From Desulfovibrio sp. (GTDB lineage: Bacteria > Bacillota > Dethiobacteria > DTU022): a stretch of 43,719 nt of DNA. This document shows positions 8,315 to 33,901 of the stretch, in pieces. The stretch's first letter is position 1, and every line of letters begins with the position of its first letter. The translations under genes and the position numbers were made by a program. A model generated the notes under the pieces. The model saw nothing but the letters and a program-made list of their open reading frames with translations, had not been told where the DNA came from and did no database searches. The stretch lies in NCBI GenBank assembly GCA_020060545.1, contig JAGUZX010000049.1, forward strand, positions 1-43,719, read 5' to 3'.

Positions 8315-9772
8315 TCACATCCATTTGGGAATTCCCAAGGCTGAAACTTCAGCCACATACCTGGCCACTTTCAGCATTTCGTCTTCACTGTCTTTCTCAA
8401 TAAACTTGGAGACGAGCTCATCCATGCGCTCTTCAATAAAGCGGGTCGAAAATTCGCCGGCGATAAATTGGGGATGCCTGATAATACTTAACAGGAGCGG
8501 CGCCAGGGTTTTGACCCCTTCAACCCGCAGGTTCCTGCTGATGGCCCGGTCCATCACCCTGACGGCATCTTCCCGGTCGGCGCCGGTAGCCATAATCAGC
8601 ATGATCAGCGAATCGTAATAAGGCGGTATGTCCGCTCCTTCATAATAGCCCGGCGATATCCGCACCGCAGGGCCCTGAGGGGAATACAAGCGGGTAATAT
8701 TTCCAAAAGATGGGTTGAAGGTCCTGGGATCCTCGGCGTTGAGGCGCACTTCCAGGGCCCACCTATTCGGATGGATATCCGACTGCTTGAAAGGCAGCGG
8801 CTTGCCCATAGCCACATCCAGCATGATACCGACTATATCCAGACCCGTTACCAACTCGGTGATCCCGTGCTCAACCTGCAGCCGGGTGTTGACTTCCAGG
8901 AAATAGTATTTCCTGGAAGTGGAATCAAACAGAAATTCCACCGTTCCCGCCGAAACATACCCGATCTCCCGCATCAGGCGGACCGCAGCGAAACAGATCT
9001 CCTGGCGGAGATCGTCGTCCAAAGTCGGCGAAGGTGCCTCCTCGATGATTTTCTGGTTGCGCCGCTGGATGGTGCACTCCCGTTCAAAAAGATGCAGGAC
9101 GTGACCGTACTGATCGGCCACCACCTGAACTTCGATATGCCTGCCCCGCTCCACGTATTTCTCCACCAAAACCTTGTCGTCGCCGAAAGATTTCATGCCT
9201 TCCGACCGGACCCGGGCCAGGGCAGACGGCACCTGCCCCTCCCCCTCCACTTTGAGCATACCCTTGCCGCCGCCGCTCGCTGAAGCCTTAATCATGATCG
9301 GAAAGTCTATCTTTTCTCTTTCCATCCACTCTTTAATCTCGGCCGCACCGGCTACGTTACTGATACCGGGTATTACCGGGAGATTGGCGCGCACGGCAAT
9401 TTTCTTCGCCTCGATTTTATCGCCCATGGAGCGGATTACCCCGGGAGGAGGCCCGATCCAGGTCAGCCCGGCATCGATTACTTTCCGGGCGAAGGTATCG
9501 TTTTCCGCCAGGAAGCCCCAACCGGGATGAACGGCGTCGGACTTTGTCTCAAGAGCGGCGTTGATCATTTTCTCGATGTTAAGATATGAATCCCCGGGAG
9601 GGGCGTCACCAATATGCACGGCAATATTCGCCATGGCCACGTGCTGCGCCAGCCGGTCGGGGGTGCTGTAAACCGCCGTTGTCTTTATTTTGCGATCCCG
9701 GCAGGTATGCATAATCCGCACCGCAGGAACGCCGCGGTTGGCAACCAGTACTTTATTGATTTTTCTTTCCAT
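8315..9772 (-). CDS. Biotin carboxylase subunit (pyruvate carboxylase subunit A-like)
   Basis: A 485-residue ATP-grasp biotin carboxylase. It would use ATP and bicarbonate to carboxylate the biotin carried by the partner encoded 10 bp downstream. Visible are the ATP-binding glycine loop ASASGGGKGM near residue 160, RRNQKIIEEAPSP near 227 and the EVNTRLQVEH catalytic segment near 277. It departs from the usual ANRGEIA N-terminal motif (here ANRGVPAVRI) and from VEHPVTE (here VEHGITE), so it is a divergent member like its partner. The ATG at 9772 follows GGGGGAG by five bases. An upstream in-frame start is unsupported. Confidence 0.88.
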   Translation of the reverse strand: MERKINKVLVANRGVPAVRIMHTCRDRKIKTTAVYSTPDRLAQHVAMANIAVHIGDAPPGDSYLNIEKMINAALETKSDAVHPGWGFLAENDTFARKVIDAGLTWIGPPPGVIRSMGDKIEAKKIAVRANLPVIPGISNVAGAAEIKEWMEREKIDFPIMIKASASGGGKGMLKVEGEGQVPSALARVRSEGMKSFGDDKVLVEKYVERGRHIEVQVVADQYGHVLHLFERECTIQRRNQKIIEEAPSPTLDDDLRQEICFAAVRLMREIGYVSAGTVEFLFDSTSRKYYFLEVNTRLQVEHGITELVTGLDIVGIMLDVAMGKPLPFKQSDIHPNRWALEVRLNAEDPRTFNPSFGNITRLYSPQGPAVRISPGYYEGADIPPYYDSLIMLIMATGADREDAVRVMDRAISRNLRVEGVKTLAPLLLSIIRHPQFIAGEFSTRFIEERMDELVSKFIEKDSEDEMLKVARYVAEVSALGIPKWM

Positions 9773-26264: not shown

Positions 26265-26837
26265 TTAGCGCACCGGCATGGCCATGTAGATGTCGGGTTT
26301 TCCCGGGCCGTTGGCATCGGGCATCACCCCGATTATTTCGAATCCCACCTTTAAGTAAAACTCGAACGGGTGGCGGCGCAAGTTTCTCAGGTCCCGCAGG
26401 TGATCCAGCACACCGGGGAACAGCTCCACCCCGCCCAGGTTGGTCATGTTGGTCTCGTCGTCGGTGCCTACCCAGAGCGTCAGGCCGCCGCGCTGCTTCA
26501 CCTGTGCGGCCAGGTCCCGCACCAAGGCGCTGCCGATCCCTTTATTCCGGAACCCTTCCCGGACCACCAGCGGGTGCAGCTCCCAGACATGGCCGTTGTA
26601 GTGCCTGATCCCGCCGGTCCAGCCAATGGCCGCTCCTGTTTCATCCACCGCCACCCGGCAGATCCGGTCCGGCTTAAAGAACTCCCGGACCTCCTGCAGG
26701 GCGCCGTCCAGGTCGGGGTATGCCTGCGGCCAGCCGGCAGCGAAACCCTGCACCAGCATCTCCGCCGCTTCCCTGATCCGCTTTTCGTTCTCCTGGACCA
26801 GGTTGACGATCGTAACCTTTGCTGTTTCAGTGACCAT
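26265..26837 (-). CDS. GNAT acetyltransferase resembling aminoglycoside 6'-N-acetyltransferase
   Basis: A 190-residue acetyltransferase. WELHPLVVREGFRNKGIGSA (about 85) is the acetyl-CoA site; the following GGLTLWVGTDDE, LRRHPFEFYLKVGFEIIGV and PDANGPGKPDIYMAM match the pattern of enterococcal AAC(6')-Ii. Chromosomal enzymes of this branch acetylate aminoglycosides but may have other natural substrates; resistance is not shown by sequence. The ATG at 26837 has GGAGGAA four bases upstream and overlaps the preceding gene's stop by 11 bp, so the two are co-translated. Confidence 0.85.
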   Translation of the reverse strand: MVTETAKVTIVNLVQENEKRIREAAEMLVQGFAAGWPQAYPDLDGALQEVREFFKPDRICRVAVDETGAAIGWTGGIRHYNGHVWELHPLVVREGFRNKGIGSALVRDLAAQVKQRGGLTLWVGTDDETNMTNLGGVELFPGVLDHLRDLRNLRRHPFEFYLKVGFEIIGVMPDANGPGKPDIYMAMPVR

Positions 26838-27426
26838 AACGTTCCTCCTTCCACGGATCGCCGTGGTTGTGATATCCCGCAGTTTCCCAGAACCCCGGCC
26901 GGTCGTGTTCCAGGAACTCGACCCCGGTGACCCACTTGGCGCTTTTCCAGAAGTAGAGCCGGGGCACCACCAGCCGGACCGGCCAGCCGTGATCCGGGGT
27001 GAGCGGCTTACCGTTGTGCTTCAGGGCGAAGAGAACATCCGGCTGGAAGAAGTCTTCCAGGGTAAGGTTCGTGGTGAAGCCGCGCGCGGCATGGATCAGC
27101 ACGAACTTCGCCGCCGGGCGGAGCCGCGCCAGTTCCTTTACCTGCCCGGCGGAAACCCCTTCCCAGGTGTTGTCCAGCCGGGACCAGCCGGTAACGCAGT
27201 GGATGTCTGAAAACACCTTCACCCGGGGCAGGGAGCTGAATTCCGGCCAGCCGAGGCTGACTTCCTGTTCGACCAGGCCGAATAGATCAAACCGCCACTG
27301 GTCGAGATCCATCCGGGGTACCGCGCCGTAGTGCAGCACCGGAAACCCGCCGGTCTGCTTCTGGCCGGGCGGGATCCGCTGCTCCCGGCGGGTATCGGAA
27401 CTGACCACTGTTTCTTGATCGCCCAT
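26827..27426 (-). CDS. Sulfite oxidase-fold molybdopterin oxidoreductase
   Basis: A 199-residue cytoplasmic protein of the sulfite oxidase/YedY molybdopterin-binding fold. The molybdenum-ligand cysteine lies in SDIHCVTGWSR near residue 78, and the pterin-binding tail includes HGWPVRLVVPRLYFWKSAKW near 145. There is no Tat signal and no dimerisation domain, unlike MsrP or sulfite oxidase. The substrate is unknown. The start has GGAGG seven bases upstream. It leads a two-gene unit with the AAC(6')-like gene. Confidence 0.85.
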   Translation of the reverse strand: MGDQETVVSSDTRREQRIPPGQKQTGGFPVLHYGAVPRMDLDQWRFDLFGLVEQEVSLGWPEFSSLPRVKVFSDIHCVTGWSRLDNTWEGVSAGQVKELARLRPAAKFVLIHAARGFTTNLTLEDFFQPDVLFALKHNGKPLTPDHGWPVRLVVPRLYFWKSAKWVTGVEFLEHDRPGFWETAGYHNHGDPWKEERYGH

Positions 27427-27520: not shown

Positions 27521-27557
27521 ATTAAGTTATGGTGCCTGGCACCATTTATTAAGTTAT
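27521..27557. repeat. GGTGCC palindrome inside a 10-bp direct repeat
   Basis: ATGGTGCC-T-GGCACCAT (27529-27545) is a perfect 17-base palindrome. It lies between two copies of ATTAAGTTAT (27521-27530 and 27548-27557), as if a small mobile element had duplicated a target. It is downstream of the glycyl radical enzyme gene. Confidence 0.55.
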
Positions 27558-27600: not shown

Positions 27601-30591
27601 TTACTTGTATTGCGCCCCCAGGTTGAATTCGGTGCGTTCAATCAGCTCCTGCTGCATCTCCTTGTTCAGCTCGACGAAGTAGGCGTTGTAGCCGGAGATG
27701 CGCACCAGCAGCCAGCGGAAGTCCTCGGGGTGGGCCACGGCTTCCTTGAGCATGGCCGTGGTAACGATGTTGAACTGCATCTGCATGCCGCCCAGATCGA
27801 AGTAGGTTTTAGCGTAGGCGGCCACCCGCTCGACAAAAGCCTGGTGGGTGTCCTGCGGCCCCGGCGCCACTTTCACGTTGAAGGCGATATTGTTCGGCAT
27901 CTTGAGCGGGTCCAGGCCGGCAATGGTGTGGATGGAGGGCAGGAGCTGGTCCGTTACCCCGGGGGACGGGGTGATGCCGGGCGTAAAAGGTTTTCCCTTG
28001 AACCGGCCGCTCGGCAGCGCCCCGGAAAGGGTGCCGAAAGCGACGTGGTTGGACATGCTCCAGAAACCGCTGGTGTATTTCCCGCCGCGATAGTTGGTAT
28101 GGGCCTGGTAGCGATCGTAGATAAAATCGATCAGCTCCTGGCCCAGGCGGCGCGGCGCCAATGCGCCAGTGCCGAACTTCGGGACCCTGGCCATGATCCG
28201 GGCGTGGAGCGCCTCGTAGCCTTCAAAATTGCGCCGCAGGGCTTCCAGCAGCGACCGCCAGTCTACAGCTTTTTGCTCGTAAATCAACTCCCTGATGGCA
28301 GTCAGGCTGTCGATGACATCGGTAATGGAGACCAGGGCCGCCCCCGAGGTATTGTAACGGGCCCCGCCGTCGATCACATCTTTGGCCCGCTCCATCGGCC
28401 CGTCGAAGAAAGACGAAAGCAGCGGTGTCGGGTGCTGCTCCTGGTGGGAACGGCCCAGCAGGTTGTTGTACTCGATCGACCGGTCGATCAGGTAGCCGAG
28501 CTGTGCTTTGTAAGCGTCCATGAAATCTTCAAAAGCGGGAAAGGTCCCCTCCGCCGCCGGATCGCCGGTTTGCGGGCCGACCTGCTCCCCGAGCAGCGGG
28601 TGCACCCCGTTATGGAGCGCCATCTCCAGGGGCGCGACGGTGTTGAGGAGCATGCAGTTGGTGTGCCCCATGTGGCGGCCGCAGCTGGTCGGCTCCACGC
28701 AGCCGGTGGCCCCCCAGTCGCGGGCGTCCGCGAGGGCAAACCCCTGGTTGACCAGGGCGGGGACGATAACCGCGTCGTTGTGCAGCGACGGCGTCGCCGC
28801 GGTGATTGTGTTCACCTCGATCAGGCGCTTCAGGTATTCCGGCGAGTTTGCCGCCGGGTGGTAGCGGGCGTTAACGTTGGGCTCGCGCAAGCCCAACATC
28901 TCGGTCACCTTGAGGAAGATATAGGTCATGTCGTAGACGGCGCTATTGCCCTCCCGGTCCACCCCGCCCAGGGTGAGCGCCTGGTCGGAGGAACTGCCGC
29001 CGAAGAGCCGGTTCCCCAGGTCCGGCACATTGGGCAGGTGGTCGGCGCACTTCAGGTAAAAGCAGCCGGTCAGCTCGATCGCTTTCCTGACGAGCGCATC
29101 GCGCTCCGCCGCCGTGGCGGCGCCCGCCAGATCCTGTAAAAAATAGGGCTGCAGCACCTGGTCCAACCGGCCCAGGGAGAGCCCGGCGTTCATGTTTTCC
29201 ATGTGCAGGGCCACCCAGCAGATCCAAATGCTGTTGAGCGCTTCCTGCAGGGTGCGGGCCGGGTAGGCGGGCACGCGCGCGCAGACCGCGGCCATGGCTT
29301 CGAGTTCGCGCCGGCGGCGCCGGCCGGACTCGCTGTTTTGATCCAGAGCCGCCGCCAATTCGAGCGCTTTCCGGCTTAAGTTCCGGGCATAGGCCAGGAC
29401 TCCCTCCTGGGCGATCTGCATGGCCCGGTAGAAATTGCGCTCTTTTTCCGTAGAGACGGCTTTTTCTTTTGCGGCGGCTTCACGGATTAGATCCAGCAGG
29501 CCGCGCTGCAGGATCATCGGGAAGTCAGGGATGGTGTGCGAAACGGCGTGCGCCTTCCAGCAGAAGTAAAGGACCCAGCGCCCTTCGAGCTGCTGGCAGC
29601 GGGGGTTTTCGTATTTGCGGCGGGTATATTCCATGATGTTGCGGTCAGTCCAGAAGGGAAAAACCGTGAAGTTCAAGATATCGATGTCCTCTGCCGAAAT
29701 CCGGTAGGGGTTTAACTCCCTTTCATCCACCGTCAGCAGTTCCGGCCAGAGGGCGACCGCGCCAAACTCGGGGAAAAGGAGCACTCCCACCTCGCGGGTG
29801 GTGGTGGTGCCGGCGAGCAGATCCCAATCCCGGATCACGGGGCGGCGATGGGCCAGGATATGGCGCAGCGCTTCGGCCTGGCGCACTCCCGGGTCCCAAT
29901 CACGGCCGCTTGAGTCCTGCTCGAAGCCGTGCTCCAGGAAGTATTCTGTCAGCAGGCGCGGCCTCTCCGTGCAAATTGCAGCGGGAGTAGTAAAAAGGCT
30001 TTCCCGCACCGCCTGCAGCCGGGGGAAATCGAAGAGGCTGAAACTGCTTAAAAAAGGTTCGGCCAGCACTTTGACCTGGTCGTGCGGCAAAGCCTTAAGA
30101 GAAGCCCTGTGGGTCAAAGGGTGAGACGACCTGGCGGCCGGGTTGTAATCTGGCGGGCGGGGGTTTTCCTTCCGCCGGGCGAGCAGTTTTCTCTTTTTCC
30201 GGCCCAGGGTCATCTCTTTCGAAAGGTGGCCGAACTTGGCCAGGTACATCAGGTTCCCTTCGATGAACAGATTGTTTTCCAGCAGCATGATCATCGGATC
30301 GGCGGGAGCGGTGACAGAGAAAAAGCTCTGCATCAAGCGGGGGCTTTTAAAATTAAACGTCAGATCGGGATTCGCGATTTTACCCCGCCCGACCTTCATC
30401 CGGCCGCGGTCAAACACGGCGTAGACACAAACCGAATCGTCCAAGGCCCGGAACTGCGCCCGAGCGTTGAATTCAAAGCGGGCCCGTCCATCCTTCCCGT
30501 CAAGAATGTTCCGCCGAAACGTGGGGCTCAAACGGAAATACGCGGCCATCAGCCGCAATACGCTGCTGGCGTAGAAACCGGCAGTATCCAT
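27601..30591 (-). CDS. Glycyl radical enzyme with an N-terminal SCP2-like domain
   Basis: A 996-residue protein. Residues about 160-996 are a pyruvate-formate-lyase-superfamily glycyl radical enzyme. The catalytic Cys631 and general-base Glu633 lie in GATGCVEPTSCGRH, and the radical Gly967 in RISGYNAYF. The Cys-x-Glu motif places it with the dehydratase/lyase branch (diol dehydratases, C-N and C-S lyases), not with PFL, which has Cys-Cys. Residues 1-130 resemble an SCP2 lipid-binding domain (RARFEFNARAQF, PDLTFNFKSPRLMQSFF). No activating radical-SAM gene is adjacent. AAGGAGG lies nine bases before the ATG. The substrate is unknown; the lipid-type domain hints at a hydrophobic one. Confidence 0.88.
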   Translation of the reverse strand: MDTAGFYASSVLRLMAAYFRLSPTFRRNILDGKDGRARFEFNARAQFRALDDSVCVYAVFDRGRMKVGRGKIANPDLTFNFKSPRLMQSFFSVTAPADPMIMLLENNLFIEGNLMYLAKFGHLSKEMTLGRKKRKLLARRKENPRPPDYNPAARSSHPLTHRASLKALPHDQVKVLAEPFLSSFSLFDFPRLQAVRESLFTTPAAICTERPRLLTEYFLEHGFEQDSSGRDWDPGVRQAEALRHILAHRRPVIRDWDLLAGTTTTREVGVLLFPEFGAVALWPELLTVDERELNPYRISAEDIDILNFTVFPFWTDRNIMEYTRRKYENPRCQQLEGRWVLYFCWKAHAVSHTIPDFPMILQRGLLDLIREAAAKEKAVSTEKERNFYRAMQIAQEGVLAYARNLSRKALELAAALDQNSESGRRRRRELEAMAAVCARVPAYPARTLQEALNSIWICWVALHMENMNAGLSLGRLDQVLQPYFLQDLAGAATAAERDALVRKAIELTGCFYLKCADHLPNVPDLGNRLFGGSSSDQALTLGGVDREGNSAVYDMTYIFLKVTEMLGLREPNVNARYHPAANSPEYLKRLIEVNTITAATPSLHNDAVIVPALVNQGFALADARDWGATGCVEPTSCGRHMGHTNCMLLNTVAPLEMALHNGVHPLLGEQVGPQTGDPAAEGTFPAFEDFMDAYKAQLGYLIDRSIEYNNLLGRSHQEQHPTPLLSSFFDGPMERAKDVIDGGARYNTSGAALVSITDVIDSLTAIRELIYEQKAVDWRSLLEALRRNFEGYEALHARIMARVPKFGTGALAPRRLGQELIDFIYDRYQAHTNYRGGKYTSGFWSMSNHVAFGTLSGALPSGRFKGKPFTPGITPSPGVTDQLLPSIHTIAGLDPLKMPNNIAFNVKVAPGPQDTHQAFVERVAAYAKTYFDLGGMQMQFNIVTTAMLKEAVAHPEDFRWLLVRISGYNAYFVELNKEMQQELIERTEFNLGAQYK

Positions 30592-30721
30592 ATCGTCCAG
30601 CCTCCTTGGAAGCAGATTTTCACTCCAGGCTGAAGCGGTAACTGGGCTCTGCGTAACGGCGATCGGCCTTTGGCGGGATTAGGCCAAGCCTCCGGGGTCG
30701 GGTCATGGGTAACTTTCACTC

Positions 30722-30736: not shown

Positions 30737-30810
30737 TAGTTTATTCTTCCAATCACAATCTTAACACCGCTCCCTCACCCGGTCAACAAAAATACCTCCG
30801 TTGCCGAAAA

Positions 30811-30839
30811 TATATCAAGGGGACGGTTCTTTTGATATA
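30811..30839 (+). repeat. GGGGACGG hairpin element, TATATCA arms
   Basis: Arms TATATCA and TGATATA around AGGGGACGGTTCTTT. It is nearly identical to the copy at 10690-10718, 20 kb away and in opposite sense. Confidence 0.85.
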
Positions 30840-30980
30840 TCTATTCTGTAACCCAGGCCAACCCGAAAAAATCGATCAATAAGGCCTGTTTTTATCCTTC
30901 TGATGATGTCCACATTAAGTGGGAACACGCGCGTCCATCTTGAAAATAACACCGCGTTATTTTCACCGAATAAACGAGTT

Positions 30981-31041: not shown

Positions 31042-31114
31042 TGAAGCAACGCTGCAGAAGATGTGGAGCAATAGAACTTTCCCCGCACCGGCAAGGTCTT
31101 TTTCAACCGGTTCA

Positions 31115-31513
31115 TTACACAAACTCCTGCAGGAAAATCTCCACCACCCGGGAGTCGAAATGCTTGCCGCTTTCCGGGCGGATATGATCGTAAACATCGG
31201 ACACGGCGAAGGCCATGTCGCCGATGGCGCTGAGCTAGCGCACTTCCTCCGCAGTAAAGGGCTGCGTTTCCGGGCCACGACGCCGAAAGACCGCCATTAC
31301 TCCGAGCAGGTCTTCTTCCGATTGTAAAGGAACTAAAACAGCCGGACCTGTCTCTGCCGCCTGATCCACAGACAGCTGTTTCGGCTCTTCGCTGTACATA
31401 GCGGAAACCAGCGTCTCGCGGGTGCGCAGAACGACGCCGCAAAGCCCTTCTTCAATACTGAAAGACATTCCGGTATTACTTAAAAACAACTGCAGCCAAC
31501 CAAAAAACGCAGT
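31115..31513 (-). pseudogene. GAF plus HD-GYP signalling protein relic
   Basis: Directly after the pheA stop, a frame encodes part of a GAF domain (MSFSIEEGLCGVVLRTRETL, then AVLVPLQSEEDLLGVMAVF). It meets an in-frame TAG at 31235-31237 and continues as LSAIGDMAFAVSDVYDHI and SGKHFDSRVVEIFLQEF, which resembles the end of an HD-GYP domain. It has no start codon, an internal stop and most of HD-GYP missing. It is the C-terminal scrap of a former sensor or phosphodiesterase. Confidence 0.65.
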
Positions 31514-32432: not shown

Positions 32433-33323
32433 TCAAACCCCGGAAGGATCCGCCGCTGCGGCTTCAAGGTCCTCCCTTAAAACGGCGGCGCCTTTCAGGT
32501 AGACATGCTTGATCTCCCGGGGTTTCATGGAGGTGTTGACAAGCATTAAAACCCTGATACAGCGCGGGAGCGCGCCGGTTACACCAATCTCAACAGAGCA
32601 GAACAGCGGCACATCGGTCCACCCCATCCGGCGGGCGGCTTTTGCCGGGAAAGCGGCGTTCAGATCAGGGGTTAAGGAAAAAATAACAGCAGCGACGTTC
32701 TCTTTTGCCACAGCATTGTCGGTTACAATCTGCCGGAGCAGCTCGGCGGTTGCCGCCAGAATCTCTCCCTCATCGTTGGACGCTGCATCTATTGCTCCCC
32801 TGATGCCCCTGACATTCAATTCCGGACTCCTGGCGCCGGCCCGCTCAAAGCCATATCCGCCGCCTCCCGGCGGACAAAAAGAGGAATCTTCAGATGCCAG
32901 GGCGTACAGAGCCAGGAGATAGCTCCGGGGTCCCAGGCCGCTGATCTGCCCGCGTGCTACCGGAGCGATTACAGAGCGGCGGCGCAGTTCTTCCCGCGCA
33001 TAAATATTGGAGAGGTGGACCTCTACGGCAGGAACGCTGACGGCTGCGAGGGCATCGCGCAGGGCGATGCTGTAATGGGTAAAGGCCCCGGGATTGAAAA
33101 TGATGCCTTCGTATTTTCCCTCAGCCCCGTGGATGAGATCAATCAACGTTCCTTCATGATTGGATTGATGGCAATCCACCGTGATCCCTAATTTTTCGGC
33201 CTCCCGGCGGATCATCGCATCCAGGTCTTCCAGGGTATAGATTCCGTAAATCTCCTTCTCTCTTTTTCCCAGCAGGTTCAGGTTGGGACCGTGCAGGATC
33301 AATAATTTTTTCTTTCCGATCAT
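32433..33323 (-). CDS. Fused type II 3-dehydroquinate dehydratase and AroH chorismate mutase
   Basis: A single 296-residue frame carries two enzymes. Residues about 1-142 are an AroQ type II dehydroquinase: [15 protein letters not shown], the catalytic Tyr in [16 protein letters not shown] and VEVHLSN. A linker rich in Gly and Pro ([20 protein letters not shown]) leads into residues about 168-290, an AroH-type mutase: [24 protein letters not shown], the [17 protein letters not shown] active-site segment and KHVYL. No stop, start or ribosome site separates them. The ATG at 33323 overlaps the aroK stop as ATGA. It would catalyse dehydroquinate to dehydroshikimate and chorismate to prephenate, and no other mutase is in the operon. 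Confidence 0.9.
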
Positions 33324-33901
33324 CTCCACCCCCTGACGGCGGCAATAATTGCATTCACGGCTTCCTCTACTGTTGCACCGGTGGTTTCAACAGCCAGATC
33401 TGCTTTGCGGTAAAAGGGCCTGCGCTTTTCCATCAGGTATTCGATGGAAGCCCGGCGATTGACCCCATTCAAAAGGGGCCTGTCCCTTGTCCCGGAGAGC
33501 CTCTTGCAGGCCTCGTCGGCTGAAACGTCGAGGAAAACAACAACGCCGTTTTTGCGCATGGCAGCCATATTTTCTTCCCGCAGCACAGCTCCTCCACCGG
33601 TAGCAACAACACACGTACCCGGGAGTTTTCCGGCCAGCAACCCTAACAGCTCTGTTTCCGCGTCGCGGAAAAAAGTCTCACCAAAGCAGCTGAATATTTG
33701 GCCGATACTCATCTCCAGGGCTCTCGCGATAACCTCATCGGTGTCGTAAAAATCAACACCAAGCCTGGCGGCCAAAAGCCTTCCGGCGCTGGATTTTCCC
33801 GCACCCATAAATCCGGTTAAATAAATGTTCGCCGCCGGTTCAGATTTCGGGACTTTCATGTATTCGCGAACCGCCGGGTTTTTAAAATGCATCTGCTTCA
33901 T
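33320..33901 (-). CDS. aroK: Shikimate kinase
   Basis: A 193-residue P-loop kinase phosphorylating shikimate. The Walker [10 protein letters not shown] is at about residues 30-38, the DTDE substrate motif near 54 and [10 protein letters not shown] near 99. About 20 residues precede the usual N-terminus, but the ATG at 33901 overlaps the aroE stop as ATGA, which supports it. The later in-frame ATG at residue 15 (MKVPKSEP) is an alternative. Confidence 0.95.

Follow-up and report, generated by a model that had tools for sequence, protein, structure and literature searches.

The minus-strand open reading frame at 27601-30591 of the 43.7-kb stretch of DNA analysed here (the window) encodes a glycyl radical enzyme (GRE) of an apparently separate, uncharacterised class, in which a predicted SCP2-fold domain precedes a catalytic part of the Cys-x-Glu (CxE) type. 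The product is an oxygen-sensitive radical enzyme that probably takes water or another group off a hydroxylated molecule, and its class occurs in anaerobic bacteria. The reading frame is real, with an ATG start and a good ribosome site. Its dN/dS is approximately 0.15 against a 76%-identical orthologue (with dS near saturation), close to the 0.08-0.13 among orthologues that have their own activase, pointing to purifying selection on the gene. The features of the locus are as follows.

30601..30607, minus strand: Shine-Dalgarno sequence AAGGAGG, 9 nt ahead of the ATG start (from the sequence)
27601..30591, minus strand: SCP2-GRE coding sequence, intact, 996 aa (ORF, Pfam domains, dN/dS)
30172..30591, minus strand: predicted SCP2-fold N-terminal domain, residues ~1-140 (Pfam matches of relatives, PDB profile search, AlphaFold/Foldseek)
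28033..30021, minus strand: PFL-like barrel domain, residues 191-853 (Pfam 1.9e-162, AlphaFold, PDB matches)
29536..29538, minus strand: His352, aligned with glycerol dehydratase His164 and HypD His160 (26/27 members)
28693..28701, minus strand: Cys631-Val-Glu633, thiyl-radical Cys and Glu of the CxE motif (27/27 members)
28657..28665, minus strand: His643-Thr644-Asn645, family-specific pocket segment (26, 25 and 24 of 27 members)
27673..27987, minus strand: glycyl radical domain, residues 869-973 (Pfam Gly_radical, 9e-18)
27691..27693, minus strand: Gly967, radical-bearing glycine in RISGYNAYF (27/27 members)
27529..27546, minus strand: palindromic repeat AATGGTGCCAGGCACCAT (11 exact genome copies)

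The N-terminal domain has a predicted SCP2 fold

An SCP2-like N-terminus had been proposed in the first-pass annotation. The Pfam SCP2 model (PF02036) did not reach its gathering score of 21.3 on the query, giving 13.2 bits for the whole protein and 17.0 bits for the N-terminus alone, but relatives and structure bear the proposal out. SCP2 Pfam matches were obtained for 16 of 27 homologous N-termini (best 6e-5), and a PDB search with the family profile returned SCP2 domains as all nine top matches (E 0.02-0.18). When the modelled domain was searched against the PDB with Foldseek, the top 37 matches were all SCP2-like (best 3.5e-6), among them AF1534 of A. fulgidus, UbiJ and alkylsulfatase C-terminal domains. 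AlphaFold modelled residues 1-185 with a pLDDT of 79.9, which was lowest at a loop near residues 31-40 and at the linker. Moreover, the invariant pair Gly112-Asn113 falls in the stretch where rabbit and human SCP2 have their aligned Gly-Asn. Because the modelled structure and the homologous N-termini agree, a chance match is excluded, and the N-terminus is predicted to be an SCP2 fold.

Lipid binding is usual for SCP2 folds but not universal; the SCP2-like domain of Eis, for one, is not known as a lipid carrier. The fusion of such a domain to an enzyme has precedent in the type III alkylsulfatases SdsA1, Pisa1 and SdsAP, which act on alkyl chains (PMC5426288) and are among the top structural matches of the window N-terminus. 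Their catalytic domain, however, is an unrelated metallo-beta-lactamase domain and their SCP2-like domain is C-terminal. In ubiquinone synthesis, the SCP2 domains of UbiJ, a top structural match, and UbiT stand beside biosynthetic enzymes, which are hydroxylases and include no GREs.

The catalytic part forms a class of its own

The catalytic part scores 542.7 bits with the Pfam PFL-like model (cut-off 24.3) and 65.2 bits with Gly_radical (cut-off 22.2), placing the protein in the GRE superfamily. The full-length AlphaFold model (pLDDT 87, pTM 0.90) contains a ten-stranded barrel with Cys and Gly loops, and its PDB matches 2F3O, 1R8W, propanediol dehydratase, CutC and HypD have TM scores (target) of 0.91-0.94 at 26-31% identity. 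In an alignment of 27 full-length family members, Cys631, Glu633 and Gly967, which had been named earlier as the hallmarks of a Cys-x-Glu GRE, are invariant, so that the CxE motif of the eliminases is present in 27/27.

None of the NCBIfam isofunctional cut-offs was reached by the catalytic part: the CutC equivalog TIGR04394 gave 396.4 bits (cut-off 1050), and the HypD model NF043068 377.6 bits (cut-off 1100). Even the broad PFL2-3 subfamily model stayed at 528 bits (cut-off 678). Pyruvate formate-lyase is likewise excluded, with TIGR01255 at 102 bits (cut-off 994) and Gly630-Cys631 in place of the Cys-Cys pair. In a quick tree of catalytic domains, which carried long-branch warnings and does not fix the sister group, the 29 SCP2-GREs (the window enzyme and 28 others) form one clade with an SH-aLRT of 100, separate from CutC, HypD, glycerol dehydratase and N-methyl-hydroxyproline dehydratase. 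In a family-level genome search, the alignments of other GREs, most of which are 30-33% identical, begin no earlier than about residue 190. Together with a distinct pocket, these results agree with the first-pass view that the enzyme belongs to no characterised GRE class, and suggest that the catalytic part represents a separate, uncharacterised one.

Conserved in 25-27 of the 27 members are His352, Asn468, Ser533, His604, Cys631, Glu633, His643, Thr644, Asn709, Trp844 and His849, which probably line the pocket. The B12-independent glycerol and 1,2-propanediol dehydratases (1R8W, 5I2G, 9RCO) share the barrel, the CxE motif and the Gly loop (TM, target, 0.91-0.93; 26-29% identity) but have no SCP2 domain. 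Of their set of His164, His281, Ser282 and Asp447, the enzyme shares only the first, as His352; Ala469/Gly470 stand for His281/Ser282, Asn645 for Asp447, Ser533 for Tyr339 and Trp844 for Tyr640. The segment His643-Thr644-Asn645 aligns with Trp-His-Asp in glycerol dehydratase and Trp-Thr-Ser in CutC. Choline TMA-lyase CutC has the same fold, the CxE motif and a Thr (Thr502) aligned with Thr644, but His352 replaces its Asp216, and Leu648 leaves no equivalent of its Tyr506. Trans-4-hydroxy-L-proline dehydratase HypD shares the CxE motif and the His160 equivalent, but its Asp278 has no counterpart, the position being taken by Ala469. The best PDB match by both sequence (31%) and structure is Archaeoglobus fulgidus PFL2/PflD (2F3O), which shares Ser-His at 351-352 but lacks the SCP2 domain and has Gln, Phe and Ser for the family's Ser533, His604 and His643. 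SCP2-GREs thus appear to follow the CxE eliminase plan with an altered substrate pocket, whose signature is unlike those of the compared classes.

The window gene lacks the activase that accompanies most of its relatives

The absence of a radical-SAM activase, reported earlier for 9 kb on either side of the gene, extends to the whole window. Among the 26 loci whose flanks each span 1.2 kb or more, however, an activase lies beside the GRE in 24, mostly 0-60 bp away (exceptions, L012 and L039). The first-pass deduction of activation in trans is therefore supported for the window genome, while the absence is not a trait of the family. Orthologues in genus g8 of the same taxonomic family (75-77% identical) have an adjacent activase, and DNA similarity between the window locus and its relatives stops at the ORF borders; for these reasons the missing activase is a local loss in the window lineage. 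A hidden or decayed activase at the gene was also considered, but tblastn with the orthologous activases gave no convincing match nearby. The palindrome AATGGTGCCAGGCACCAT lies ~55 bp past the GRE stop, in the slot that the activase occupies in relatives. Upstream of the GRE, at 30808-30840, there is an inverted repeat of the form ATATATCAA...TTGATATAT with AGAACCGTCCCC.

The activases of SCP2-GREs carry the motif LDDGPGIR, those of other GREs LHDGPGIR or IHDGSGLR, with L020 as an exception, and the LDDGPGIR activases cluster together in a tree (SH-aLRT 94). Contig C36 of the host genome contains an intact paralogous SCP2-GRE with an adjacent LDDGPGIR activase. Because the radical loops of the two GREs are so alike (RISGYNAYF in the window, RISGYVAYF on C36), we infer that the C36 activase is most likely the trans-activator of the window GRE. 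Such trans-activation has a precedent in E. coli TdcE with PflA.

Two other accounts of the orphan gene have to be weighed. The host genome is a MAG of 2.5 Mb in 135 contigs with a completeness of 95.5%, so that a second cognate activase may lie in its unassembled part; the contigs contain no orthologue of the g8 activase, however, and the contig leaves no doubt that none adjoins the gene, making this account unlikely. The window copy may instead be a relic, a GRE beyond activation that is being lost in the lineage, as might be read from the similarity that ends at the ORF ends, the genome repeats on its flanks and the remains of decayed SCP2-GRE/activase and GRE/activase loci on two contigs of the same genome, C28 and C114. 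Nevertheless, the intact frame, the full set of catalytic residues, the ribosome site, a dN/dS near that of activase-bearing orthologues and the intact C36 activase, which is of the right subtype, all speak for a working gene, and we doubt that it is a relic.

The remnants lie at G000:C28 ~8563-9018 (L048) and G000:C114 ~26816-27217 (L005, L050), and suggest that GRE systems are being lost from the host genome. That on C28, the tail of a third SCP2-GRE with a truncated, frameshifted activase, was examined as the lost partner of the window gene and rejected: its activase piece is only 50% identical to the activase of the window gene's orthologues. It represents a third locus, since it is closer to the activases of C36 (59%) and L035 (66%).

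SCP2-GREs are rare, widespread and in one case split

A scan of genome contigs gave 40 loci, 37 of which are SCP2-GREs or their fragments. By their record labels, the hosts belong to Bacillota, Chloroflexota, delta-proteobacterial groups, Actinomycetota, Myxococcota and others. The family is nevertheless rare, with matches in 4 of 398 genomes of the phylum and 10 of 98 of the class, the latter count including G042, where the match is a separate SCP2-like protein of 119 aa that has no GRE next to it. At one locus (L110:4684-8557, G084:C24), the two parts are encoded separately. The order there is a GRE of 834 aa (43% identical) that lacks the N-terminal domain, an SCP2 ORF of 173 aa (profile E 5.6e-22) and an activase with the motif SIDDGPGIRT. 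The SCP2 part thus accompanies the GRE even when unfused. UbiJ/UbiT proteins offer a parallel, being separate in most genomes and fused in some (ubiT-ubiU, PMC6747719). No split form beyond that of G084 was found in further genome searches.

Several other arrangements were observed. Activase and GRE are joined in a single chain of 1100 aa at L041:14218-17541, L101:156-3557 (G022:C63) and L102:629-3925 (G023:C171), in two bacterial groups. The fused activase is ~265 aa long, with CxxxCxxC and without the ferredoxin insert, and is followed by a complete CxE GRE; TIGR02494 is above cut-off in the L041 fusion. These proteins are candidate self-activating GREs, and a literature search found no paper on such fusions. 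The frameshifts in the GREs of L033 and L041 were considered as programmed, but they lie at a G run and a TA run, in different codons, and are more likely assembly errors or mutations. At L120:5584-8907 (G042:C54), the 119-aa protein adjoins a 555-aa thiamine-diphosphate-enzyme-like ORF and a zinc alcohol dehydrogenase-like protein. The latter is 35% identical to one beside the SCP2-GRE of L039 (L039:6383-14028), a locus that also has transketolase-like genes; a pathway common to the two loci is possible. In two Chloroflexi MAGs, a divergent GRE with a GCLEN motif adjoins the SCP2-GRE (L022:4688-7201, L040:11994-14504); the host genome also has a 42% identical GRE on C131.

Operon partners and the proposed reaction

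In near relatives of the window gene, an aldehyde ferredoxin oxidoreductase (AFOR) gene follows the activase by 12 bp (L011), a piece of an AFOR gene is present (L009) and an aldehyde dehydrogenase gene fills the same slot (L033); identity to the window gene is 69-71% for the AFOR loci and 66% for L033. Because unrelated aldehyde oxidisers fill one operon slot in near relatives, an aldehyde product is suggested, in keeping with CxE eliminase chemistry, the link being limited to these three loci. No aldehyde oxidiser lies beside the window gene, and elsewhere in the family the partner varies (SDR, HGD-D, chaperone, sigma factor and others). A TetR regulator is directly upstream in seven loci and in L111. 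Heat-shock genes at L016-L019 were rejected as a functional link, not being seen again elsewhere.

On this basis we propose, with moderate confidence, that the enzyme is a CxE radical eliminase of the diol-dehydratase kind, whose hydroxylated, hydrophobic substrate is bound at the SCP2 module. An activase of the LDDGPGIR subtype, here in trans, would place the radical on Gly967, and the SCP2 module would hold or present the substrate. Following the model of glycerol dehydratase, propanediol dehydratase, CutC and HypD, the radical would pass from Gly967 to Cys631, which would abstract H from the carbinol carbon. Glu633 would deprotonate the OH at that carbon and the neighbouring group, in the simplest case the other hydroxyl of a 1,2-diol, would leave. 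In CxE eliminases, Glu accepts the proton of the hydroxyl destined to become the aldehyde, a role described together with those of the HypD residues (PMC7077986). His352 and the His643/Thr644 segment would replace the usual His281/Asp447 or Asp278. The aldehyde would then be oxidised, as gene order in the nearest relatives indicates, by the AFOR or aldehyde dehydrogenase of the same operon.

The eliminase model draws on the invariant CxE motif and Gly loop, the modelled dehydratase-like and SCP2 folds, the single clade and the split locus. Against it count the weak SCP2 sequence match of the query, the variable operon partner, the existence of Eis-like SCP2 domains and an acid/base set that, by known models, seems incomplete because Ala469 replaces His281/Asp278. 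If the catalytic part were instead a decarboxylase or C-C lyase, the product would be no aldehyde. This would fit the failure to reach any isofunctional cut-off and the lack of a known function for 2F3O, the closest solved structure; the absence of the PFL Cys-Cys pair, scores for arylacetate decarboxylase, BssA/MasD and PflB below those of most eliminases, and the aldehyde oxidisers in the three operons make it quite improbable.

The N-terminal domain may be structural, serving dimerisation or stability, with a small, polar substrate such as a diol, an amino alcohol or a hydroxyproline-like compound. GRE active sites are buried barrels, most conserved residues at aligned positions of the active site are polar (His352, Asn468, Ser533, His604, His643, Thr644), and the dimer interface of alkylsulfatases draws on all three domains, including the SCP2-like one (PMC5426288). 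A standalone SCP2 gene in G084 and the frequent TetR regulators fit somewhat better with a substrate-related role, however, and UbiJ, a binder of hydrophobic quinone intermediates, is among the closest structural matches, so that a structural role is possible but the less favoured reading. A hydrophobic substrate held by the SCP2 module is plausible by analogy, given the split GRE/SCP2/activase locus and the alkylsulfatase and UbiJ/UbiT precedents.

Characterised GREs, acting on choline, hydroxyproline, isethionate or toluene, have set much of what is known about anaerobic radical metabolism. Delivery of lipids by the SCP2 module would extend GRE chemistry to membrane substrates. We tentatively picture a GRE class in which the SCP2 module draws out a hydroxylated molecule that is fatty or comes from the membrane, such as a long-chain or isoprenoid diol, and passes it to a radical dehydratase barrel. 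Anaerobes would thereby deoxygenate or break down lipids independently of O2, with one activase serving several enzymes in trans. SCP2-GREs are monophyletic and occur in several phyla, with a constant extra domain, their own activase subtype and a pocket unlike those of the compared classes. No paper on a GRE joined with SCP2 in this sense was found in the literature searched, which left out most subscription papers. Since the parts are split at one locus and a single genome holds a pair of paralogues, both the carrier role and trans-activation are open to direct test.

Neighbours of the gene in the window

The window neighbours, comprising an aro operon and genes for NADH-/molybdopterin-type iron-sulfur, biotin carboxylase and carboxylase subunits, were considered as guides to function. 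Because relatives of the GRE lack these genes, no functional link to them is claimed. Three minus-strand features of the window are recorded in their own right. A putative broken GAF-domain protein with an in-frame TAG was seen by eye at 31100-31490. An acetyltransferase at 26268-26837 resembles the AAC(6')-Ia/Ii aminoglycoside acetyltransferases (149 bits, under a cut-off of 265). Inside the aro operon, 32436-33329 encodes an apparent fusion of a type II dehydroquinase with an AroH-type chorismate mutase.
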